Under the pieces are notes generated by a model that saw nothing but the letters and a program-made list of their open reading frames with translations, made no database searches and was not told the DNA's origin. The translations under genes were made by a program, and so were the position numbers. From a virus, in the IMG/VR virus record IMGVR_UViG_3300008261_000018, positions 21,175-85,174 of that record: 64,000 nt of DNA, one strand, 5' to 3'. Shown here piece by piece: positions 15,292-64,000 of the stretch. The stretch's first letter is position 1. Each line of letters opens with the position of its first letter.

Positions 15292-16542
15292 TTAGCGCAA
15301 CGTGATCTCCAGGCTCTCCAGTCCTCCGGGCCAGACAAGTTCGCTGACGAATTGCAGGATCACCGCCCGCAGTTCCTCGTCCGTCGCAAGTTCAAGCGTC
15401 CGCCGGTCTGCAAACAGCTCGACCAGAAGCTCATAGCGAGCTGAGCTATCCACTTGCTGCAGCGCCTGCAGCTGACGATGCAGCGCCGCCAACTTGTCCT
15501 CCAATCCATCGACTCCAGCAGCCTGCGCTGCCTGCAGCGCTGAGATCTGATTGCGAATTGGTCCTGCTTCCGCTGGCTCCTTCTTTTCGCTGATAGCTGC
15601 GCTGGCGAGCTCCGCTGCCTTGGTGGTCAACGCATCAATCACCTTCCTGCGCACAACCTCGACACGGATGCCCTGGCCGTAGCGAGCGCAAATGCGGTTG
15701 TGGCATTTCAGGCGAGGGACCGCCCGATCGCGGATGTTGTGCAGGGACTTGCCGCAGCTCTCGCAGCGCACCAGCCCGGTAAACAGATGCACGGTGTGAG
15801 CAGCTCTACCCCGCATGTTTGATCGGGCCTTGAGCTTGTTTTCGGCTTCCGCCCATTCCTGCCAGCTGATCAACGGCTTGGTCCCGCCGTGCTCACCGCG
15901 CACAATGCCGCGCAGCATCGGATTGGCAATCCAGCTTTTGACGCCCTTCGGGGTCCACTTCGATTGCGTCTTAGCAATCCAGCCAGAGACGTTGAAGTCG
16001 AGCTCCATCAGCTCGTCCCACATCTGGCGCGCGGCATCCCAGTGATCCGGGCATGGCACGACGTACTGCCCGTCGTAGCTGTACCCAAAGGGAACCTTGC
16101 CGCAGGCGTAGTACCCCTGGGCCTTGCGTCGCCTCAGGCCGTCTCTGACCTTGGCCGCCGTGAGCCGGCTCTGCATCTGCGAGAACACGCTCATCATCCC
16201 GGCCTGCACGAAGCCGCCGATCGACTCGGTTTCAATGGTGCCGCCGACCAGGGCCACCACCTTGGTGCCGCGAGCGGCGCAGAGCTCGAGGAATGCCATG
16301 TCATCACCCGAGCGGCTCAGGCGAGACTGATCGGCCACGAGGATCTCGTCGACGCCGCCCCGGCCAACCAGCGACCAGAGCTCATCCCAGCCCGGGCGTG
16401 CGTTGCCCTTGAAGGCTGACCTCCGCTCGGCAATGACCCGCTCACAGCCAGCGCGCTTGAGCTCGACGACTTGGCCCTCGATCGACTTGTCCTGCTCCTC
16501 TTGGGCCGTCGAGGTGCGGGCGTATCCGATTCTCACGACCAT
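15292..16542 (-). CDS. serine recombinase/integrase (resolvase + recombinase + zinc ribbon)
   Basis: A 416-residue site-specific recombinase. The N-terminal resolvase domain starts VRIGYARTST with catalytic Ser11. It continues with DEILVADQSRLSRSGDDMAFL, which contains the conserved Arg residues. The central Recombinase domain includes KVPFGYSYDG and KGVKSWIANPMLRGIVRG. The zinc ribbon is LVRCESCGKSLHN...LKCHNRICARYG (Cys4). A coiled-coil tail follows (RNQISALQAAQ, EDKLAALHRQLQAL). I took the second Met (16542) because the V-R-I-G-Y motif normally sits near the start. It is the best evidence for integration into a host chromosome. Confidence 0.9.
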   Translation of the reverse strand: MVVRIGYARTSTAQEEQDKSIEGQVVELKRAGCERVIAERRSAFKGNARPGWDELWSLVGRGGVDEILVADQSRLSRSGDDMAFLELCAARGTKVVALVGGTIETESIGGFVQAGMMSVFSQMQSRLTAAKVRDGLRRRKAQGYYACGKVPFGYSYDGQYVVPCPDHWDAARQMWDELMELDFNVSGWIAKTQSKWTPKGVKSWIANPMLRGIVRGEHGGTKPLISWQEWAEAENKLKARSNMRGRAAHTVHLFTGLVRCESCGKSLHNIRDRAVPRLKCHNRICARYGQGIRVEVVRRKVIDALTTKAAELASAAISEKKEPAEAGPIRNQISALQAAQAAGVDGLEDKLAALHRQLQALQQVDSSARYELLVELFADRRTLELATDEELRAVILQFVSELVWPGGLESLEITLR

Positions 16543-16601
16543 GGTTGACACACGCGCTGCAGGGGGCACACTTGCGCAGACCTCCTTTAGGGGTGGTCAA
16601 A

Positions 16602-36012: not shown

Positions 36013-36722
36013 TCAGTACACGAAGCTGTAGGCGACGGTGATGAAGTCCTTGTTCAGGATCTCAAAACCGGCGAAGAGCGACCAGATCATGATAATAAAA
36101 CGACTGAAATCGTCGTTGTTATTCAACAGGATCTGAGCGTTATTACCACCGATACCCACGCCCACGGCTTGAGGGCCGAAGAACAGCATGGGGGCGGCAG
36201 TAGTCACAGCAGAGGTGATCGACGCATCAGCGATGGTCACCTGCAGAGACTTCTCGGGGAGGTTGGTCGACTCGAACCAGCGGACACCCTCAAAGAGGAA
36301 GCCGGTAGGCATCACGGGCTGACCAGCCACGAAGCCTGCCTGGCCGTAAGCGGGACCCATGCCATAGAAGAAGTTGGCGTTGGGAGCCTGCTCGGGCTGC
36401 AGGGGGTTGACCATACCGTTACCCGCGTAACGAGCGATCTCACGGAACGCGTCGTTCTGGCGCAGGTGCATCATTGCGGTGGGATCCGCGATGCAACGGT
36501 AGTAGCCATCGGCGAAGGTCGGGACATTGCGCTTGCGCATGTCCTTGACCACAGCCAGGAGGTCGGTCTTGACGTCGAACTTCGCAGACTGACCGGCGCT
36601 GTAGCTCAGATAAGGAGCAGCAGAACCTTTGGTCTTGTTCAGGGGGTAGTAGTAACCACCCTGGGTGCTGTCGGCCTTGCCATTGGCTTCGGCTTTGAAC
36701 AGCTCGTCAGCAAACACGCGGT
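36013..36722 (-). CDS. predicted major capsid protein, exon 2
   Basis: The frame RVFADELFKAEANG...FDVKTDLLAVVKDMRKRNVP...RFIIMIWSLFAGFEILNKDF has no usable start of its own and directly continues exon 1 after intron removal. The junction codon TAC gives ...LVVAY-RVFADEL. Exons of 442 and 710 nt sum to 1152 nt, a 383-residue protein. A C-terminus with a W...G.E-x-L-N-x-x-F block occurs in phage capsid proteins. Identification as capsid rests on length, the order after portal and scaffold, expression signals and the adjacent decoration-like gene. Confidence 0.7.
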
Positions 36723-37162
36723 CTCGCCAGCGCCTATCACTACTGCCCCGGAGGGCTGCGAGGCTCTTTATCCTCGCACTTGCTCTTTGTCATCGAGCAA
36801 GGTCAGACTATATCTTCACCATCCTTGAACATCTGAAGACCCCCTTGAACGCGTTGTCGCGCGAAGCGCTTGAGCTGAGCGCTTACGCCTGGAACGCAAG
36901 TACAGGGTCTTCTTCAGTTGACAAGGTGCAGGTGCGGGGCACTCGTGGGTCCTTTACCGAGTTTCCTCTCGGGACCTAGTCGTTGAACCTGCCGGCTTGT
37001 TGGCCGGATTGGCTGCTGATTACCCATGCAGCGACAGGATTTTTAAGCTTTCACGATTGCCCTTCCGGGCTGCGTTGTAGCTCCTGAGCTTTTTCCGACC
37101 GCTGGCTTGGTCGGGAAGGGCTTCCAGCAATTCACCCCGTGTTGCCCTAGACGTTTCCGACT
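36723..37162 (-). ncRNA. group I self-splicing intron in the capsid gene, 440 nt
   Basis: All four core elements are present in order on the minus strand. P is GAATTGCTGGAAGCCC (37118-37133), Q is AATCAGCAGCCAATCC (37006-37021), R is GGTTCAACGACTAGGTC (36973-36989) and S is AAGATATAGTCTGACC (36801-36816). GCTG of P pairs with CAGC of Q (P4), and GACTA of R pairs with TAGTC of S (P7). CCGAG-N6-CTCGG and GGTCC/GGACC after R fit a P7.1 extension, as in subgroup IA. Exon end GTCGCCT pairs with the guide GGGCAAC (one mismatch, U-G wobble at the splice site). The last base is G. No endonuclease ORF lies inside. Confidence 0.9.
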
Positions 37163-37604
37163 AGGCGACCACAAGCCTTTGGGCCGAGTCATCCAGCAAT
37201 GTCAGGCTTCCAATCGACTGATGGAAGACGTTCAGGTTGCCGGTATCCAGCAGCAGGCGCTGGGCGGTCAGCAGGGTCTCACGAGCCACCTTGAAGGTGG
37301 ACGGAGCGGTGGGATCAAGGGGATCAGCGGGACCGGTGTACTCCTTGAGCGTCACCAGGACCTTGTCCTTGACGATATTGCGGCTAGATGCAGTGCCCAG
37401 CGTTTGATCGGCAGTGCGCTCGCGGGAATCCTTGTTGCCAGGATTGCCCCAGAAGCGGTAACGATCGAGCTGAACAGTCTGGCCCGGCTGCTTGGCGAAG
37501 TCATGCACGACGACGGGCTCAACCGCCATCTCGATGATGTAGCCAGGGTGGGGCCGATAAAGCTCTGCGCCTAGCAGCTTGGGAAAGTCATTATCGATCC
37601 ACAT
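37163..37604 (-). CDS. predicted major capsid protein, exon 1
   Basis: From MWIDNDFPKLLGAELYRPHP to LVVA the frame is open and would stop at a TAG whose first base is the last exon base. The segments HPGYIIEMAVEPVVVHDFAK and QPGQTVQLDRYRFWG are capsid-like. A Shine-Dalgarno GAGGAG sits upstream of the ATG, and TATAGT about 55 nt upstream could be a -10. Without splicing only 147 residues would be made. Confidence 0.7.
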
Positions 37605-43751: not shown

Positions 43752-44096
43752 TCAGCGGTAGATCAGAGCCATCAGATCCTCAGGGCCCATGCCCGTCTTT
43801 TGCATGGTCTGCGCTAGGGCCATCTTGTTCTGACCGAGGCCAGCCATCTTTGATACCTCAGCTGCGGTGTACATCGCCAAGGCGTTTGCCTTCGCTTCAG
43901 CAGTACTTTGATCCATCTCGGTTGCACGAGCACTGTCCTGGATCCCAGCCATCAATTGACGGGGCTCCTCTTCAGCTCGAAGTGCATCCTTGGAGCGCTG
44001 CACCTGCAGTGCCACAGGGACCTGCAAAGTTGCAGATGAGTTAGGTGCCGCATTCAACGCCATCGCGTCGATGTTGGCATGACGAGGCAGCATCAT
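43752..44096 (-). CDS. hypothetical virion protein, 114 aa
   Basis: Ala/Gln/Met-rich helical sequence (STAEAKANALAMYTAAEVSK, NKMALAQTMQKTGMGPEDL). MALNAAPN at residue 12 is an alternative start. It lies just after the scaffold terminator and resembles the Ala-rich internal virion proteins at 49-53 kb. Confidence 0.55.
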   Translation of the reverse strand: MMLPRHANIDAMALNAAPNSSATLQVPVALQVQRSKDALRAEEEPRQLMAGIQDSARATEMDQSTAEAKANALAMYTAAEVSKMAGLGQNKMALAQTMQKTGMGPEDLMALIYR

Positions 44097-56382: not shown

Positions 56383-59255
56383 CGGCCCATGACGCCCAGT
56401 AAGCGGCGCCGTGTCATTGCCGCACCTTTGTTAATCGGCTCTGACGGGTATTGGCCAGGTGCAACAGCATTCAGGTTGGAGTCCGGCGCTGCTTTGCTGC
56501 GCTGAGCGATCCTGTTGGCCAACAGTGCCATCGCCCGCTCTTGCGACTCACTGCCCACCTCGCTGCCAAGGGCGTTTGCCATGTCGTTGAACGTAGCGCC
56601 AGCAGGGATTCCGGGCACGGGAGCGGTGCCCTCCGGCGACGGCCGGTATGCCATGCGCAAACGATCAGCTGCTACTGGATCAACGCCGCGAGTTCCAACC
56701 TGTACGACATCCATGGCCGGCGCCGCGTACGCGTCAATCTGAGGCAGGAGGTCCAAATTGCTTGCGCGGCGTGGCACGTACATCGCGCGCATCGGGTCAC
56801 CGCTGGCCTCGTCGGCCAGGACGCGCTGAACGATGAATGCGGCTTGGTCACGATCACCGCCGGTGTAGCGCGTGGCGTACTCCACGTATGACTCCATGGG
56901 GTCCGCGGGTCGCTCCGGCTCCGCCAGAACCTGCTGATAGCCGCTGCGCTTGCGAAGGGTTTCAGCGCGATCCAGGTGGTCCTGGAATTCCGTCTCGTCC
57001 ATGCCGCTGGACTGCAGCATCTCGATTAGCTGAGAGGCTTCGTCGGCGTCAAACGTCCGTGGCGCGTCTTCCACTAGGCCTGCGGTGGCTGGTTCTGGGA
57101 ACAGATCCACGCGACGACCACCACTGATCTCCCGCTTCGCCTGCTCAAGCATCTCTGCGGCGTAGCTGCCGGGGGCAAACAGCGGCCTGCCGGGGTCATT
57201 GGCTGGAACAGTCCGCGTAATCGTCCGGCCGCTCTCTCCAGGCAGCGGGATTTCCACCGTGGTCATCTCAGCAGCGGCGCGCAGCGTTGTATTGGCGTCC
57301 ACCTGGAAGCGCGCACCAAACTGCGCGGCTGCATCAAGCGCTTCAGCAGGGGTCAGCGGGCGCGGCGCCTCCTGCAAGAAGGCCCGCAACTGCTTGCCAG
57401 CCGCAACCGCGCGGCTATCAGGCGCGTTGAGGTCGCCACTGCGGCGAGGATTGATGTTCGAGTACAGGCTCTCGACAGTTCCCCGCATGGGGGTCTGCAC
57501 GCCGTACACCTCGGAGCCCTTGGCGACGGGCATTTCCCCGGAAAGCGCTGCTTCGGCGAGGATGTCGCGCAGGGCATTGCGATTTTCGGGCGGAATCTCC
57601 GCCGACAGGTTGCCTAATGCGCGGAAAAACTCTGTCTGGTCTACCTCTCCGTACTTTTTCTCCATTGTTCGCCGAATTCCGGCGTCATCGACCAGAGGAG
57701 CAAGCGTGATATCGCCGCGAACCCCCTTGCGCCGCCGCGAACTCACACCTTCAGAGGCTGTGCGCGCGAATTCACGCGCTTCTGCGTAGTCGCGGTTGAC
57801 CGGAGAGCCCACACGGAAGAGCTTGTCGGTCTCATTGATGACGCCATCGAGCACGTTTCCAGGCTCTGGGACCTGGCGCGTCCCTGACAGCACCTCCGTG
57901 TCGTACACCGGCAGCACTTCTTCGCCGTACTTCACCCCGTCCTTGGTGCGCCGCACGGTCGATTTGGTCAAATATCCAATCAATGAGTCCTTAGATCCTG
58001 TTGCCGCTGCTGCAACCTGACGGGCCGTGTACTCAGCCTTCGATAGTCGCCTGAATCGACCTTCTTGCTCTGCCTGCAGCAGAGCATTACGGCCGATGAC
58101 CGGCGTTTTGTTCTCTTCGTTGATGCGATTGATGACCTCTTTCAGGCGAATTTCTTTCTCTCGCATGAACGAGGCTGTTTTGTCCTCGTCAACGTCGCCC
58201 TCCCGCTCGTATCCAGCAGGCACTCCGACCAGCTGGTTGGGGTCAATGGTCCCAATTGCCCTTTCCCCACCTTTAAGCCACTGACCATCCGGCTGCCGCT
58301 GCGATGCTTCGATCACATAGGGAGGCGAGCCAGCGCCACCTGCGTCTTCGATATAGGTTTTTGCGCCTCGTTTCCTGAAATCTGGCTGCTTCTGGATCGT
58401 CTGAAGGTTCTTGCCAGAACGCTTGGCCTCAAACTCCTCGGGATCCTCTGCTGAATAGCCGGTGACGTCTACATTCCGCCCGGATTCGTCGCGGTCGTAA
58501 CCCTCGACGCGGAGCATGTCCGCCAATTCCACGGCGTAGTCATCCAGGAACGCGCGCTCCTCTTCGCTAGTGCTAGCCCGGCGCATCATCTGCACCGTCA
58601 TGAATGCTTGCTCGCTCTCGCTCAAGGGTTTTTTCGCGCCTTTACTGGCGAGCATCTGCTCGACGCGCTCAGGGGTATCAAGCGCAGCGAAAGAATTGCC
58701 CTCTCTGACCATTGCATCGCGACGCGCAAGCCGCGAATCAGGCCGATACGCCGACCCACTGCGTCGTCCTCTGACACGCGGATCATGTTCCAGGTAGTAG
58801 TTGTCACTCGCAACAGTTCCAGTTGGGAGCTGTTCAAACCCTTGGCGCTGGACTTGAGCTTCGTATGTACCGCTGGCGGGCATCCGCTCGTTGCGCCCAA
58901 CCTCGTACAAGTTGCCGTCTTTGCCTACGTAGGTATCCGGGGCGTCTGCAAGACGAACATTGAGTGAGAGCTGTCCTGAGGGAGAGCCGCTCACTGAGCG
59001 TCCATCGACAAGCATTTCGCTGCTTGGCGGCAGGTTGCGAGCGAGATCGCGTAACACCTGATCGCGCGCTTCAGGCGACGCGGCGGCTTGGCGCGCGAAG
59101 TACCGCTGCACGCGCTCGAGGTCGCCCTGAATACCCGGAACAACAGGAGGCAAGCCAGGGATATTCAGCTGGCTAGGGACTGCGCCCAGACTCCGGCGGG
59201 GGTCATAAGGGTCTTCCCAGCGGAAACTGCCAATTCCGCCAATCCCGAGCGCCAT
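56379..59255 (-). CDS. large virion protein, 958 aa
   Basis: The longest gene in the window and the first of the late block. It is mainly soluble and charged with Arg/Glu/Asp-rich helices (LERVQRYFARQAAASPEARD, MREKEIRLKEVINRINEENK) and no membrane segment or Gly-repeat domain. Its size and place at the head of the internal-protein run suggest a core protein ejected with the DNA. I do not recognise a transglycosylase or other catalytic motif. An N-terminal GIGGIGSFRWEDPYDPRRS resembles the starts of nothing known to me. Confidence 0.6.
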   Translation of the reverse strand: MALGIGGIGSFRWEDPYDPRRSLGAVPSQLNIPGLPPVVPGIQGDLERVQRYFARQAAASPEARDQVLRDLARNLPPSSEMLVDGRSVSGSPSGQLSLNVRLADAPDTYVGKDGNLYEVGRNERMPASGTYEAQVQRQGFEQLPTGTVASDNYYLEHDPRVRGRRSGSAYRPDSRLARRDAMVREGNSFAALDTPERVEQMLASKGAKKPLSESEQAFMTVQMMRRASTSEEERAFLDDYAVELADMLRVEGYDRDESGRNVDVTGYSAEDPEEFEAKRSGKNLQTIQKQPDFRKRGAKTYIEDAGGAGSPPYVIEASQRQPDGQWLKGGERAIGTIDPNQLVGVPAGYEREGDVDEDKTASFMREKEIRLKEVINRINEENKTPVIGRNALLQAEQEGRFRRLSKAEYTARQVAAAATGSKDSLIGYLTKSTVRRTKDGVKYGEEVLPVYDTEVLSGTRQVPEPGNVLDGVINETDKLFRVGSPVNRDYAEAREFARTASEGVSSRRRKGVRGDITLAPLVDDAGIRRTMEKKYGEVDQTEFFRALGNLSAEIPPENRNALRDILAEAALSGEMPVAKGSEVYGVQTPMRGTVESLYSNINPRRSGDLNAPDSRAVAAGKQLRAFLQEAPRPLTPAEALDAAAQFGARFQVDANTTLRAAAEMTTVEIPLPGESGRTITRTVPANDPGRPLFAPGSYAAEMLEQAKREISGGRRVDLFPEPATAGLVEDAPRTFDADEASQLIEMLQSSGMDETEFQDHLDRAETLRKRSGYQQVLAEPERPADPMESYVEYATRYTGGDRDQAAFIVQRVLADEASGDPMRAMYVPRRASNLDLLPQIDAYAAPAMDVVQVGTRGVDPVAADRLRMAYRPSPEGTAPVPGIPAGATFNDMANALGSEVGSESQERAMALLANRIAQRSKAAPDSNLNAVAPGQYPSEPINKGAAMTRRRLLGVMGR

Positions 59256-60112
59256 TGAACGCCACGCCGCGCACTGTGTACGACGAGTCTAAAGAATCTC
59301 ACTTTTTGACCCTGCGCCTCGCGTGGATAAACGCGTCGCGATTTTTCAGGAAATTATTGCTCAGCTCTATTTATTTCTGGGCCTAAAAACACCCTCCTCC
59401 GTAGGGCGAAAAAATTGGCCCATTTCGCCATGGGAAAAATCGTTTCACCCTACAGAGCGCGCCTCGCGGGACCCCTGTTGATTTTTGCTGCGGCGCGCGG
59501 TTTACATCAAACACCCCCCGCAAGTTGCGGGAGTCGCCCAACAAAAAAAAGACTGCGCCACGCCCCTGCTTCGTTCGCGGCCAACGCTGTAGCCCCGCGC
59601 CCGCGTGCGCGCTACGCGCGCTTATCGCGTTCGCTGCGTTGCGTTTGTAGCGAGAGAAGCCTGCTTCGTTTGTGAGCAAGCGAGCGAGCGAGCGTTACTT
59701 GTGGATAGCAGATGAGCAGCAGCTGAGCGCACGGAAGCTGCGTGAGCAACAGATGTATACAAGTGCGCGCACACACGAGAGCAGGCGACGCGTTCACGCG
59801 TTGCGTCAGCGTTTCCACACGCAACCACCAGTACCCCGCGCACGCGCTCGGGCGCAATCCGCGCTCCACCGCACCCCCGCGCCTTCGCGACTAGGGGGGC
59901 CTCATCCACTGCGGGTGGGTGTTTTTCTCCCTATGGGAATCATTCTCAACGGTGAATCTCTTGTGCGCTACGCGCACTGATTCGCTGTTCTCTTCGCCCA
60001 TGCGCTCGCTGCGCTCGCTTTGTGCTCCATCTCTCCACGCCTCAATACCCCGGAGCCACCCTCGCCATCCATTCCATTTGTCTCAGCTGAGTCTCATCGC
60101 GTCACGGGACAC
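59256..60112. other. noncoding divergence region, about 0.86 kb
   Basis: No frame here looks coding; the ORFs are Arg/Ser-rich shadows. Visible elements are CGTGGATAA (about 59320) and TGTGGATAG (about 59700), which are DnaA-box-like, and a Cys/Arg-free CG-rich core. Also present are GTAGGGCGAAAAAATTGG (59401-59418) and, inverted, AAAAATCGTTTCACCCTAC (59435-59453). The hairpin CCCGCAA/TTGCGGG sits near 59520, and many CGCG and GCGAGC repeats follow (59640-59700). It separates minus-strand late genes from plus-strand early genes, so it should hold promoters and perhaps an origin. Confidence 0.5.
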
Positions 60113-60175
60113 GACGCCCCGCCGCGCGCGCCGCGATCAGGGGCTCTGCTTGTGTCCCTCCGCAGCAGTGCATTC
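60113..60175 (+). promoter_or_regulatory. first box unit of the small-gene array
   Basis: GCCCC and GGGGC flank a GC-rich loop, reminiscent of the terminators downstream but without a T-run. TGTGTCCCTC and AGCAGTGCATT (60164-60174) follow, and the next gene's ATG is 2 nt further on. This is the leftmost of eleven copies of the box. Confidence 0.55.
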
Positions 60176-60373
60176 ATGCTTGCTCAACTCCGCTCGCTCA
60201 TCCCCGTCACCACCACCGAGGAATACGACTACCTCGAGTGGCTCTACATCGAAGCCACCCGGCTAGGCGATCACCTCGATCTCGCTGCCGAGCTCTTCAG
60301 CTACAGGCAGGGCATCCTCGAGCACGCGATCAATTGCCAAGAGACCTACGACTCTGGCGAGTGCCCCTTCTGA
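60176..60373 (+). CDS. small early protein, 65 aa, ends ECPF
   Basis: Starts at the ATG 2 nt after the box. Helical and acidic (TTEEYDYLEWLYIEATRLGD, HLDLAAELFSYRQGILEH). It ends TYDSGECPF, an acidic tail closing on Pro-Phe like the SSB C-terminal tip. The longer frame upstream is not coding. A 59-nt segment at its 3' end, from the last codons through the terminator, is repeated after the next gene. No family is recognised. Confidence 0.65.
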   Translation: MLAQLRSLIPVTTTEEYDYLEWLYIEATRLGDHLDLAAELFSYRQGILEHAINCQETYDSGECPF

Positions 60374-60379
60374 CACCAT

Positions 60380-60413
60380 CCCCCGCTTGGCTCAGCCAGG
60401 TGGGGGATTTTTC
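60380..60413 (+). terminator. array terminator 1
   Basis: CCCCC, then GGCT/AGCC arms, then GGGGG and ATTTTTC. The box AGCAGTGCATT follows at 60426-60436, and GCTGCT at 60441-60446 closes a small hairpin with it. Confidence 0.85.
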
Positions 60414-60454
60414 GTGTCCCTCACCAGCAGTGCATTTCACGCTGCTTGACTCCG

Positions 60455-60652
60455 ATGACCATCACCCTCAACCACAACTGGATCGACGGCGCCGCAGCTT
60501 GCGCGCTCCGCAGATCCATCGAGGTCTACACCTGGCACGGCATCGAGGGCGACTTCGACTACGACCACGAGGTGATCAACCCCGAGGAATACGAGGCCGC
60601 CAATCTCCTGCTCCGCTCCACTCACCTCCCCGAGAGCGATTGCCCCTTCTGA
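60455..60652 (+). CDS. small early protein, 65 aa, ends DCPF
   Basis: MTITLNHNWIDGAAACALRR, then TWHGIEGDFDYDHEVINPEE, ending LPESDCPF. The acidic tail with C-terminal Pro-Phe repeats that of the preceding gene. I prefer the ATG at 60455 over a TTG at 60446, because the box-to-start layout then matches its neighbours. No family is recognised. Confidence 0.65.
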   Translation: MTITLNHNWIDGAAACALRRSIEVYTWHGIEGDFDYDHEVINPEEYEAANLLLRSTHLPESDCPF

Positions 60653-60658
60653 CACCAT

Positions 60659-60692
60659 CCCCCGCTTGGCTCAGCCAGGTGGGGGATTTTTC
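60659..60692 (+). terminator. array terminator 2
   Basis: Identical stem to terminator 1, followed by ATTTTTC. The box follows at 60705-60715, and the next ATG overlaps the region usually used by the 3' hairpin arm, so no second arm is seen here. Confidence 0.85.
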
Positions 60693-60717
60693 GTGTCCCA
60701 ATACAGCAGTGCATTCA

Positions 60718-60903
60718 ATGTCCTTCACGACGCTGATCACTCCCTCCGGCAAATACGAGTACATCGCCAACGGCGACCAAACTCGCATCACCTTCTGGGC
60801 GCTGCGCGGCAACAAGCGCGAGTGGAGCAGATCCACCTCCGTCCCGACCGAGCTCGCTCGTCGGGACTACGAGTCCCGCAAGCAACGCGCGATCTTCGCC
60901 TGA
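60718..60903 (+). CDS. small early protein, 61 aa
   Basis: MSFTTLITPSGKYEYIANGD, then TRITFWALRGNKREWSRSTS, then LARRDYESRKQRAIFA. A short beta-sheet half and a basic C-terminal helix. The ATG lies 2 nt after the box. Only the part from this ATG is coding; the frame upstream is shadow of the neighbours. No family is recognised. Confidence 0.6.
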   Translation: MSFTTLITPSGKYEYIANGDQTRITFWALRGNKREWSRSTSVPTELARRDYESRKQRAIFA

Positions 60904-60909
60904 CACCAA

Positions 60910-60946
60910 GCCCCTGCTCCCTCCGGGAGTGGGGGCTTTTCTATGT
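60910..60946 (+). terminator. array terminator 3
   Basis: GCCCC, CTCC/GGAG arms, GGGGC and TTTTC. The box variant AGCGGTGCATC is at 60955-60965. GCACTGCT (60967-60974) pairs with AGCGGTGC along all 8 positions. Confidence 0.8.
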
Positions 60947-60980
60947 CCTTCCTCAGCGGTGCATCTGCACTGCTTTAGCC

Positions 60981-61283
60981 ATGGCACGCGCCATCCTCTT
61001 CGAGGCCAGGTCTATCGAGCAGGCCCTTGAAGCTGCGCACCTTACCGCCGGCGAAGCCTGGTTCTGCGTCAGCGAAGGCGTCCTCTGGATGCACTTCTGC
61101 CTTGACCGCAGCGACCTGGCGAGCTGGCAGGAGGAGACCGGCCTGGGGGAGTGCACCGATGTGCACGACCCCGAGGTCTCCTTCGATGCCGAGAACCCCG
61201 GCAACTGGTGCTCTCTCAGCTACGCCGCCCTCGGCGATCACAACGGCCTGGTCGACCTGCGCTACATCGTCCAAACCACCTGA
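60981..61283 (+). CDS. small early protein, 100 aa
   Basis: MARAILFEARSIEQALEAAH, then AGEAWFCVSEGVLWMHFCLD, then DPEVSFDAENPGNWCSLSYA. Acidic, with Trp and Cys in beta strands. The ATG is 15 nt after the box. The helix-strand pattern suggests a small alpha/beta fold. No family is recognised. Confidence 0.6.
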   Translation: MARAILFEARSIEQALEAAHLTAGEAWFCVSEGVLWMHFCLDRSDLASWQEETGLGECTDVHDPEVSFDAENPGNWCSLSYAALGDHNGLVDLRYIVQTT

Positions 61284-61290
61284 CACCGAA

Positions 61291-61325
61291 CCCCCGCTTG
61301 GCTCAGCCAGGTGGGGGTTCTTTCG
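61291..61325 (+). terminator. array terminator 4
   Basis: CCCCC, GGCT/AGCC arms, GGGGG and TTCTTTC. Box AGCAGTGCATT at 61337-61347; ACGCTGCT follows and can pair over 7 positions. Confidence 0.8.
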
Positions 61326-61363
61326 TGTCCCTCATCAGCAGTGCATTGACGCTGCTTCCTTCG

Positions 61364-61552
61364 ATGCGCGCTCCCATCCTCGCGATCGCTGCCGGCACCG
61401 CCATCGGTTTCACCCTGGTCGGTGCCATGCACGCCGCTGTCGCTCGCCTCGATCAGGCCACCCGCCAGCAGTGCATCCGCCAGGACTGGCCTGTTCACCA
61501 GCACACCGCCCACACCGAGTTCTGCCGGACCTACATGGTCAAGGCCTTCTGA
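61364..61552 (+). CDS. small membrane/secreted protein, 62 aa
   Basis: MRAPILAIAAGTAIGFTLVG is an N-terminal signal-anchor helix. Then AMHAAVARLDQATRQQCIRQ and FCRTYMVKAF add two Cys (CIRQ, FCRT) that could pair outside the membrane. The short hydrophilic domain would sit in the periplasm or at the inner membrane. Superinfection-exclusion proteins of phages have this layout, but no homology is claimed. Confidence 0.6.
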   Translation: MRAPILAIAAGTAIGFTLVGAMHAAVARLDQATRQQCIRQDWPVHQHTAHTEFCRTYMVKAF

Positions 61553-61562
61553 TCCCACTGAT

Positions 61563-61597
61563 CCCCTCATCGGCCCGGCCGGTGGGGGGATTTTTCA
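61563..61597 (+). terminator. array terminator 5
   Basis: CCCC, CGGCC/GGCCGG arms, GGGGGG and ATTTTTC. Box AGCAGTGCATT at 61609-61619; GCGCTGCT follows, pairing over 8 positions with a 4-nt loop ATTC. Confidence 0.85.
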
Positions 61598-61635
61598 TGT
61601 CCTCTCTCAGCAGTGCATTCGCGCTGCTTCCTTCG

Positions 61636-61956
61636 ATGGATATCCGCGTCCTTAGCAAGCGCACGCTCAGCGATCCGCTGCCAGGCATTTATAGGGCCTA
61701 CGTCGGTCGGCCGAGCGCTCTCGGGAATCCATTCCCGATGCGCTCTGAGTCCGATCGCGACGACGTCTGCGAGCGCTATCTCGCCTGGCTGCGCGACAAC
61801 TACAGCGCTGGCGGCCCTGCTCGCGCTGAGCTCGAACGGCTCTACGCGATTGCCCTTGAGCAGCCGCTAGAGCTTGTCTGCTTTTGCGCCCCCAAGCGCT
61901 GCCACGCCGACAGCATCAAGCAAGCCCTGCTGGGCATGCATGCTCAACGAGCCTGA
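61636..61956 (+). CDS. DUF4326 domain protein, 106 aa
   Basis: YVGRPSALGNPFPMRSESDR, then ERYLAWLRDNYSAGGPARAE and LELVCFCAPKRCHADSIKQA match the DUF4326 family. Its markers are the Y-V-G-R-P-S-x-L-G-N-P-F start and the L-x-C-F-C-x-P-x-x-C-H-A-D end with three Cys and one His. The domain is common in phages and bacteria and has no proven function; the C-F-C...C-H cluster suggests a metal site. The ATG follows the box by 16 nt. Confidence 0.88.
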   Translation: MDIRVLSKRTLSDPLPGIYRAYVGRPSALGNPFPMRSESDRDDVCERYLAWLRDNYSAGGPARAELERLYAIALEQPLELVCFCAPKRCHADSIKQALLGMHAQRA

Positions 61957-61957
61957 T

Positions 61958-61991
61958 CCCCTCACTCGCTTGCCGGGTGGGGGGATTTTTC
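61958..61991 (+). terminator. array terminator 6
   Basis: CCCC, a CTTGCC loop region and GGGGGG, followed by ATTTTTC. Box AGCAGTGCATT at 62004-62014; GCGCTGCC follows and pairs over 7 positions. Confidence 0.8.
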
Positions 61992-62031
61992 ATGTCCTCT
62001 CTCAGCAGTGCATTTGCGCTGCCTCACTCCG

Positions 62032-62205
62032 GTGACACACTCCGAGCTCTTCGTTGGTATCGAGCCCTCCGATCCAACAGACCCCAACTCGGCTCCGCTC
62101 GCTCGGATCTACGGCTCCAAGGCCGAGGCCGAGCACCACACCCCCTTCGTTCAAACCTTCGCTGACTTCATGGCCAGCGACGACGACACGACCCTGGTCT
62201 TCTGA
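62032..62205 (+). CDS. small early protein, 57 aa
   Basis: I chose the GTG at 62032, which keeps the same distance to the box as in the neighbours. An upstream GTG inside the box itself (62008) would put the box in the protein. MTHSELFVGIEPSDPTDPNS, then AEHHTPFVQTFADFMASDDD and LVF make an acidic protein with a C-terminal Phe. No family is recognised. Confidence 0.55.
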   Translation: MTHSELFVGIEPSDPTDPNSAPLARIYGSKAEAEHHTPFVQTFADFMASDDDTTLVF

Positions 62206-62212
62206 CCAAGAT

Positions 62213-62246
62213 CCCCTGCCTGGCTCAGCCGGGTGGGGGATTTTTC
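62213..62246 (+). terminator. array terminator 7
   Basis: CCCC, GGCT/AGCC arms, GGGGG and ATTTTTC. The box variant ATCAGTGCCTT is at 62259-62269. TCAGTGCC pairs with GGCGCTGA that follows, a different but complementary arm. Confidence 0.8.
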
Positions 62247-62286
62247 GTGTCCCTTCTCATCAGTGCCTTTGGCGCTGACTGCTTCG

Positions 62287-62436
62287 ATGGCCCCTCACGA
62301 AATGACCACCGAGGAACTCCACCTCCTCGCCTGGGAACGCGCCGCTGCCTGCCAGCGCAGAGCCGCAGCTGGGCAGGACGACTCCGACGAATTCGAGGAG
62401 CTCCTGCCTTTGCTCAACGAGCTCTGCTGCCGCTGA
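62287..62436 (+). CDS. small early protein, 49 aa
   Basis: MAPHEMTTEELHLLAWERAA, then QDDSDEFEELLPLLNELCCR. Strongly acidic and helical with a C-terminal Cys pair. The ATG lies 17 nt after the variant box. A host-protein inhibitor is conceivable from charge and size only. Confidence 0.55.
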   Translation: MAPHEMTTEELHLLAWERAAACQRRAAAGQDDSDEFEELLPLLNELCCR

Positions 62437-62446
62437 CCCAAGTACT

Positions 62447-62480
62447 CCCCTCATCGGCACCGCCGGTGGGGGGATTTTTC
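62447..62480 (+). terminator. array terminator 8
   Basis: CCCC, CGG/CCG arms, GGGGGG and ATTTTTC. Box AGCAGTGCATT at 62493-62503. The usual GCGCTGCT arm is replaced by TCCGGG-GACG-CCCGGA further down, another hairpin before the ATG. Confidence 0.8.
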
Positions 62481-62537
62481 GTGCACTCACTCAGCAGTGC
62501 ATTGTTCTTTCTCTCCGGGGACGCCCGGATTTCCGCT

Positions 62538-62801
62538 ATGTCGGAAGGACAACTCTCGAGACTGCTTCGTCGCGTCAAGCTCCTCGCTCGCCGTGACGTC
62601 ATCCTCGATCAAACCGGCCACATGATCGGTGGCGCACTGGATCCCTTCTGGCAATTGCTAGAGATCCAGCTCGACACCATCCACGATCAATTCCTGGACG
62701 GTTACGCACCTATCGGCATCGGCCAATTCCTCGCCTACTGCGAGCAGCTGGTTAACGCTGATTGGCACCTCGTTCGAGACCTCGAACGGCAATACGCCTG
62801 A
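62538..62801 (+). CDS. hypothetical early protein, 87 aa
   Basis: MSEGQLSRLLRRVKLLARRD, then FWQLLEIQLDTIHDQFLDGY, then FLAYCEQLVNADWHLVRDLE. A basic N-terminal helix followed by an acidic aromatic helical body. The upstream frame contains shadow sequence only. No family is recognised. Confidence 0.6.
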   Translation: MSEGQLSRLLRRVKLLARRDVILDQTGHMIGGALDPFWQLLEIQLDTIHDQFLDGYAPIGIGQFLAYCEQLVNADWHLVRDLERQYA

Positions 62802-62821
62802 GCCAAGGTTCAGCACCTCAT

Positions 62822-62855
62822 CCCCTCATCCGCTTGCCGGGTGGGGGGATTTTTC
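62822..62855 (+). terminator. array terminator 9
   Basis: CCCC, a CTTGCC loop region and GGGGGG, then ATTTTTC. Box AGCAGTGCATT at 62868-62878. CCGGTC-GCAA-GACCGG (a GNRA-loop hairpin) lies between box and ATG. Confidence 0.8.
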
Positions 62856-62912
62856 GTGCACTCACTCAGCAGTGCATTTACCTTTCTCCCGGTCGCAAGA
62901 CCGGCTGCATCC

Positions 62913-63425
62913 ATGGCTACCGCCATCACCAAGACCGATCTGGAAGCTCGCATCGCCGAGCTCGAGGCCATCCTCGCCACCAGCTCTGCAGCCAATCCGA
63001 ACCAGGTCGTCCTGGTTGGCATGCTCAGAGCTGTCAAGCCGATCGAGTCCAAGAACCCGGAGGCCAAGTTCCAGGTCACCGCGATCCTCACCAACAACGC
63101 TCGTGAGCTGATCAATGGCCAGGAGACCCGGGTCGATCTCCCCGTCGATGGCCTCATCGCCAGCGACAACGGCAATGGCCCACTGGCTACCCAGCTGCTG
63201 GACATTGCTCGCAGCACCCGCTGGGCACGCGTCCGCGTGACCGGCTTCTGGGTCCGCCGGGGCGAGATCGAAATCCGCAACAACTACCTCAACGCCACCG
63301 GCAAGCAGCTGCGCCTCCAGTCCATCTCGGTCCTCAACTCTGAGCCCGCCGATCAGCCCGCGCTCGATGCCCCCATCGCTGCGCCTTTCGCTGACGGCCC
63401 CACCGGCGAAGAGCCCAGCTTCTGA
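62913..63425 (+). CDS. putative single-stranded DNA-binding-like protein, 170 aa
   Basis: After a coiled N-terminal helix (DLEARIAELEAILATS), the strands NQVVLVGMLRAVKPIE, AKFQVTAIL, RVRVTGFWVRRGEIEIRNNY and LRLQSISVLNS resemble an OB-fold. The Pro/Ala linker leads to an acidic C-terminal tip ending TGEEPSF, the usual design of SSB proteins whose last residues (D-D-D-I-P-F in E. coli) recruit other enzymes. I infer an SSB role but do not see a diagnostic motif. Confidence 0.45.
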   Translation: MATAITKTDLEARIAELEAILATSSAANPNQVVLVGMLRAVKPIESKNPEAKFQVTAILTNNARELINGQETRVDLPVDGLIASDNGNGPLATQLLDIARSTRWARVRVTGFWVRRGEIEIRNNYLNATGKQLRLQSISVLNSEPADQPALDAPIAAPFADGPTGEEPSF

Positions 63426-63447
63426 TCCGTAGCCACCGGGCTACACC

Positions 63448-63480
63448 GCCCCACTCGGTCCGCCGGGTGGGGCTTTTTTA
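63448..63480 (+). terminator. array terminator 10
   Basis: GCCCC, GG/CC arms, GGGGC and a long T-run (TTTTTT). No AGCAGTGCATT box follows; the sequence AACACAGCATGCGTC stands in its place. Confidence 0.85.
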
Positions 63481-63488
63481 TTGACTCG

Positions 63489-63836
63489 CCAACACAGCAT
63501 GCGTCCTGTCTCTTCCATCACACGACGCCTTGGCGAGTACGACCTATCTTTCGCCCATCGCGCCTGCGCTCCACGGATTATCGCCGCCTGGCGCTGTCCG
63601 CCTGGAGCGCTTTTGTCACCGCCTGCGTTTATGTCTTCATCGCAGGCCAACTGACAAGGCGCGCTTACAACTTCCTTGCCCCACACCTCCTCACATTCCT
63701 GCGCGCAGCTGCACTCACCATCGAATCCACTCTCCCCACTGAGGCTGCTCCAACCACTCCTCCAGTACTTCGACATCCACCTCAGCAAACCAAGCCTCAA
63801 TCCACGCGCCGGCGCAAAGCGACCGCGCAATCCTGA
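63489..63836 (+). CDS. probable small membrane protein, start unclear
   Basis: Frame 3 (codons starting at multiples of three) reads RRLALSAWSAFVTACVYVFI, then AGQLTRRAYNFLAPHLLTFL, then a Pro/Thr/Arg-rich end, TGA 63834-63836. One clear membrane helix and a hydrophilic tail look truly coding, but no ATG, GTG or TTG opens this frame upstream. The ATG at 63499 lies in another frame and reads MRPVSSITRRLGEYDLSFAH. A frameshift, either programmed or an error, or an unusual start such as CTG would explain this. Confidence 0.4.
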   Translation, partial: PTQHASCLFHHTTPWRVRPIFRPSRLRSTDYRRLALSAWSAFVTACVYVFIAGQLTRRAYNFLAPHLLTFLRAAALTIESTLPTEAAPTTPPVLRHPPQQTKPQSTRRRKATAQS

Positions 63837-63860
63837 ATCTCAAGACCTGAAACGACATCG

Positions 63861-63893
63861 CCCCTGCCAGCACCGCTGGTGGGGGTTTTTTCG
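63861..63893 (+). terminator. array terminator 11
   Basis: CCCC, CCAGC/GCTGG arms, GGGGG and TTTTTTC. Box AGCAGTGCATT at 63905-63915 precedes the last gene. Confidence 0.85.
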
Positions 63894-63935
63894 TGCACTC
63901 CTTCAGCAGTGCATTTGTCGTTTCTGGTCAATCGC

Positions 63936-64000
63936 ATGACTGAAATCAAAGACGTCCTCGGTGAGCTCTACCCCGAGATCGCCGACTTCCTGGCCGAGCA
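63936..64000 (+). CDS. 5' end of an early protein (partial)
   Basis: MTEIKDVLGELYPEIADFLA is an acidic helical start that runs off the window. The ATG lies 20 nt after the last box. The array therefore continues beyond the window, at least by this gene. Confidence 0.5.
   Translation, partial: MTEIKDVLGELYPEIADFLAE

Follow-up and report, generated by a model that had tools for sequence, protein, structure and literature searches.

A repeated terminator and start-associated box precedes single small genes in a putative S-EIV1-like cyanophage

Composite promoter-terminator cassettes, known as PeSL, have been described in T4-type phages (Arbiol 2010; Comeau 2014, as relayed in PMC4503421 and PMC3950731), and start-associated sequences (SAS and ESAS) precede genes of cluster K mycobacteriophages (PMC3203893, PMC11373665). 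In the haloarchaeal virus HGTV-1, a motif with an inverted repeat lies upstream of the majority of genes in one arm of the genome, and has been compared with PeSL (PMC3950731). Here we describe an array of small genes in IMG/VR virus record IMGVR_UViG_3300008261_000018, in which each gene is preceded by a short conserved element, hereafter the box, usually directly behind a hairpin terminator.

The window, i.e. the whole stretch of 64,000 nucleotides analysed, comprises bases 21175–85174 of a record totalling 85,174 bases. Because the first and last 114 nt of the record are identical, the genome is circular (~85,060 bp), and the array, at the record's right end, crosses the circular junction into the record start. 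It contains 11 boxes on the same strand (window 60152–63915), each ahead of one of 11 small genes. The sequence CAGCAGTGCATT occurs exactly nine times on the + strand between 60163 and 63915, and two copies with two mismatches stand in like context (60954 and 62258); at up to two mismatches there were 23 matches in the window compared with 7.2 expected, a count reached by no shuffle. Across the whole genome, 17 matches at up to one mismatch fell on one strand and none on the other, and a reversed-pattern control likewise gave none. Scanning 59200–64000 for terminators returned 25 sites (2.9 expected), including nine strong ones 5′ of boxes, and a strong hairpin terminator stands upstream of all boxes except box 1. 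Repeat families D1 and D2 place 9–11 spacers in register, and the 11 array proteins, small orphans with few relatives, have no mutual similarity at E 0.05, in agreement with a preliminary description, made from the sequence alone, of single-gene units with a shared spacer design in which the genes are unrelated and the spacer is the part that is kept. A 59-nt spacer repeat that includes the last codons of the preceding gene, also reported there, is present in exact copies at 60363 and 60642 (TGCCCCTTC TGA...GTGTCCC). The spacer order that it proposed holds for hairpin and box, but the first unit has no hairpin, and GCGCTGCTT occurs in exact form in a single unit, with near forms (NCGCTGCTT, GCGCTGCCT, GCGCTGACT and GCACTGCTT) in five others. 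It overlooked the NTG that lies 9–11 nt 5′ of the box and is part of the conserved element, as well as the conservation of the module among S-EIV1-like phages and the gain and loss of cassettes at the spacers.

By its terminase, the closest isolate is Synechococcus phage S-EIV1 (51% identity, against ~25% for all other listed phages), which points to an S-EIV1-like phage and not to a T4-like myovirus as the carrier. As S-EIV1 is the nearest isolate, the host is probably a freshwater Synechococcus-like cyanobacterium. Of 80 relatives fetched by terminase, many of them fragments, 49 records were searched for the box, a check that had been proposed beforehand; 23 contained it at up to one mismatch, with clustered copies confined to one strand and a reversed-pattern control close to zero. 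About 98 distinct copies were gathered from relatives, giving the consensus NTG-N8-CANC[AG]GT[AG]C[AT]T, and NTG-N8-CANCAGTGCAT is kept across phages of 41–62% GC, on one strand per genome, with controls at approximately zero. A hairpin and T-run lie just 5′ of 73 of the 98 copies, compared with four in shuffled sequence, and most of the remaining copies belong to the first unit of an array, one in each, or lie behind a different hairpin. The T-run and G-run of the terminator keep a fixed offset from the box (terminator-to-box distance 10–13 nt), whereas the hairpin sequences vary. Viral matches to the box came mostly from the S-EIV1-like lineage. Cellular genomes (257 Gb) yielded 73 single, scattered matches, approximately the level of chance; there were no clusters among them, nor any array in a cyanobacterium, and a host origin of the box was rejected on these grounds. 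A full-text search of the cyanophage literature found no earlier description of the motif, although an earlier mention may exist.

Two relatives depart from this pattern. Marine phage G032 has no CAGTGCAT boxes but carries a derived box, CATCAGTAC, with CAGTAC in place of CAGTGC, in ten copies on a single strand, mostly behind terminators. No box copies were found in S-EIV1 itself (L094/L095), where other foldable repeated spacers precede small genes on the minus strand, at 43792, 43498, 43012, 41476, 40785, 39528, 38809 and 25919; they are of the types TGATCCGTCAAAGCGGGT (two), CCTGGGC[AG]TCCATA followed by a CCCAGG arm (two) and GTCCTRAGYATGAC (four), none with an Rfam match, and are possibly a replacement of the box system. 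Separately, CGATGTTAGT lies 5′ of the first box both at G036 3322 and at G032 20692 (reverse complement), and is a possible common promoter or start region of the array.

Comparison with three near-identical phages (G003, G002 and G004) revealed that whole cassettes come and go. The order A B C D E F G H I J of the window appears as A′ B C D E′ G H J in G003, as A′ B C D E K′ F G H I J in G002 and as B′ C D E G H I in G004; a prime on A, E or B marks an altered version or a replacement, and K′, which has no relation to gene K, denotes an additional unit for a membrane protein. Collinear DNA stops at three points (60174, 61630 and 62518) and is picked up again at 60370, 61956 and 62821; all six breaks fall within spacers, and cassettes are present or absent in their entirety. 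This pattern is as expected of homologous recombination between common spacers, which may have produced it. Over larger divergence the box stays with its gene: homologues of gene E are box-led in four relatives (47–76% identity), whereas the S-EIV1 homologue has no box, and those of genes I and J (the latter at 46–52% identity) are likewise box-led in G044, L126, L127 and L133. For the three genes together, the box is retained at 32–76% protein identity.

Taking as start codon the ATG that gives the longest reading frame, we find that in 25 of 80 box-led genes the ATG lies 0–7 nt past the box (11–18 nt counted from the box's first base), at variable spacing. Transcripts that began 3′ of the box would lack these close ATGs, and the box therefore most likely lies in the mRNA leader. 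Predicted leader folding weakened when upstream or downstream arms were swapped between sites, both in the GC-rich group (z −7.3 and −5.5, respectively) and in the AT-rich group (z −3.5 and −1.9). In one set of leaders the box is placed in the loop of GACCTC..GAGGTC, GGCCTCTTAC..GTAAGGGGCC, GCCCCAAT..ATTGGGGT and similar stems, and we regard a leader RNA structure as suggestive. A fixed stem, TGCACY-N8-RGTGCA, was rejected, as its covariation did not exceed that of shuffles save weakly at one pair. Rfam returned nothing above threshold for the array leaders, the only sub-threshold matches being to NsiR1 and located on terminators. Pairing of the box with Escherichia coli rRNA was also discarded, the 16S signal being no higher than for shuffled boxes and the 23S signal borderline.

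On balance we lean slightly towards a composite terminator and start-associated leader element, combined with recombination-mediated exchange of cassettes. This reading starts from features observed directly: the geometry of the module, its conservation across diverged phages, the breakpoints and the position of the box relative to the ATG. Each spacer would comprise the intrinsic terminator of one gene followed by the leader element of the next, with the box in the 5′ leader RNA, often within a hairpin. A putative phage or host factor would read the box and so set translation or stability for each of the small genes, terminators would insulate neighbouring genes, and near-identical spacers would supply homology for recombination that adds, deletes or swaps single-gene cassettes. 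Several points weigh against it. Its support comes from sequence, the box-binding factor is a postulated one, and exchange by recombination is read from breakpoints. Hairpin shape and register vary, with the TGCACY..RGTGCA stem unsupported across all sites; aligned leaders performed no better than shuffles (85/500 on cells paired), in an alignment of only four members; and folding z-scores of single array leaders range from +0.2 to −3.7. A more ambitious and tentative version, to which we give distinctly less credence, is a phage-wide RNA regulon in which dozens of early small genes, throughout a cyanophage lineage, display the same leader motif in a loop, where a single dedicated phage factor reads it. 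If so, the motif would travel with the terminator, and a gene landing between two modules would instantly be both insulated and under control of the regulon.

Much of the same evidence could describe a phage-specific DNA promoter for an unknown RNA polymerase, sigma factor or activator, which would make the spacers true analogues of PeSL. A fixed two-part motif (TG + CANCAGTGCAT), on one strand, once per gene, right behind terminators and always upstream of its gene is what such a promoter would look like. However, the ATGs that closely follow the box leave no space for a downstream start site, and the arms flanking the box match site by site. There were no sigma70-like sites in 59200–64000 (0.9 expected in shuffles), although cyanobacterial promoters may be weaker than the scan demands; a sigma70-type promoter in the T-run and box was rejected for want of a consensus match and because the ATG is too close. 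Nor was there a Sigma70_r2 match (search control positive), or a match to a T7-type phage RNA polymerase, in a search whose control gave no signal and which does not prove absence. We consider a promoter unlikely, if still worth serious attention, and the proposal in the preliminary description that each gene has its own on/off unit survives in its terminators but not in a promoter. Antitermination or pausing fares worse and appears improbable to us: a complex loaded at the terminator-free first unit and reloaded at each box, with terminators read through, would suit arrays whose first unit has a box and no terminator, and a box in a probably transcribed leader, but no NusG/RfaH-type gene was found in the phages (search control positive), and isolated boxes (genome 4025, 10209 and 14751), each ahead of a single gene, occur in other contexts.

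Same-orientation cassettes, breakpoints in folded spacers and a serine recombinase gene in the genome raise the question of whether the module is chiefly an integron-like recombination site for a dedicated recombinase. We think this very improbable, as no tyrosine integrase was found in G000, G003 or G032 (control positive), the box also precedes isolated genes and accompanies homologous genes over large divergence, and plain repeat homology suffices for the breakpoints. An ERF gene was also sought, with no match. The serine recombinase is a large protein encoded on the minus strand (window 15292–16569), with a Resolvase match and a weak zinc-ribbon match, and suggests temperate ancestry or a mobile insertion. 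Finally, an NTG (ATG, GTG or TTG) at the same position in nearly all copies would permit a frame, NTG..AGT GCA, for a short peptide in the leader, M-x-x-x-[NSTI]-S-A-F. In that frame, wobble bases are fixed and the base that varies in CANC is the second of its codon. An in-frame TAA interrupts one copy or more (GTG AAC TAA, G036 4057), and the copies do not hold a common frame with their genes; on the codon-position pattern and the in-frame stop we rejected this explanation, and we give it next to no credence.

Set beside the described systems, the composite leader element that we favour belongs to neither PeSL nor SAS, combining PeSL-like terminators and shuffling with SAS-like start association. 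As PeSL is portrayed in the accounts cited above, both are repeated regulatory spacers with a stem-loop terminator between small accessory genes, and both show shuffling among close relatives with breakpoints at the module; those accounts give PeSL a sigma70 early promoter, whereas none was seen here and a leader box in the likely mRNA takes its place, and they give it T4-like myovirus carriers in contrast to the S-EIV1-like lineage proposed here. With cluster K SAS, the array shares a short, asymmetric, one-orientation motif before unrelated gene starts that is kept across divergent relatives and is absent or nearly so from host genomes. SAS lie immediately 5′ of starts (3–9 bp), as do roughly one-third of the boxes (within 7 nt), with others further away (0–60 nt overall). 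The sequences differ (GGGATAGGAGCCC versus NTG-N8-CANCRGTRCWT), as the preliminary description anticipated in likening the two, and SAS are uncoupled from terminators, which here stand at a fixed distance. HGTV-1 likewise has a conserved motif, with an inverted repeat, ahead of most genes in one arm, but its motif contains a TATA-like box and belongs to an archaeal virus. Integrons resemble the array in their same-orientation single-gene cassettes with foldable repeats between them, but encode the IntI tyrosine recombinase in cis, whereas G000 and G003 gave no PF00589 match (control positive); no attI-like platform was seen, and no search was aimed at one.

The units, all on the + strand, are laid out as follows, with terminators from the terminator scan and boxes from motif search and repeat families unless stated otherwise. 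Box 1 (60152–60174; GTG-N8-CAGCAGTGCATT) has no terminator upstream and leads gene A (60176–60373, 65 aa), which has no family match and is replaced by A′ in G003 and G002. A hairpin with T-run (60378–60413) and box 2 (60414–60436) precede gene B (60455–60652, 65 aa); a copy of that terminator (60657–60692), within the 59-nt repeat, and box 3 (60693–60715), with the ATG 2 nt downstream, precede gene C (60718–60903, 61 aa). Next come a terminator (60908–60942), box 4 (60943–60965, the CAGCGGTGCATC variant) and gene D (60981–61283, 100 aa), then a terminator (61288–61324), box 5 (61325–61347) and gene E (61364–61552, 62 aa). Gene F (61636–61956, 106 aa), the sole array gene with a family (DUF4326), follows a terminator (61560–61596) and box 6 (61597–61619), and its entire cassette is missing from G003 and G004. 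The next terminator (61955–61991) overlaps the stop codon region of gene F and is followed by box 7 (61992–62014) and gene G (62032–62205, 57 aa, GTG start). The terminator at 62210–62246, absent from the automatic list, was identified by eye, at 62210–62241, and from repeat family D1; box 8 (62247–62269, the CATCAGTGCCTT variant) and gene H (62287–62436, 49 aa) come after it. Behind the terminator at 62446–62480, the leader with box 9 (62481–62503) folds into a box hairpin and a second hairpin ahead of gene I (62538–62801, 87 aa), whose cassette is missing from G003; a terminator (62820–62855) and box 10 (62856–62878; motif search and leader folding) lead gene J (62913–63425, 170 aa). No box follows the terminator downstream of gene J (63448–63480), and the last unit has a terminator (63860–63892), box 11 (63893–63915), repeated at the other record end, and the start of gene K (63936–64000, 45 aa), which runs over the circular junction (L009, 50–187). 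The stretch from the gene J terminator to the final box has ~360 nt (63481–63840) with no clear gene, and at 63483 TTGACTCGCCAACACAGCATGCG resembles a box that has decayed. Upstream of the array, a non-coding, GC-rich gap of ~850 nt with gcgagcgagcgagcg repeats (59256–60130) separates divergent arms and is a candidate promoter or origin region. Elsewhere, a group I intron on the minus strand (36779–37181; RF00028, 60 bits) adjoins the likely major capsid gene (36013–36717) and probably splits it.

The module indicates that T4-like phages are not alone in having evolved plug-in regulatory modules for their accessory genes, and that such modules also arose in a cyanophage lineage that is widespread but has almost no functional data. 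Its alignable set of ~98 copies gives the search for a factor that may read the box a precise target, and the module flags cassettes whose small genes, probably directed at the host, could be screened.

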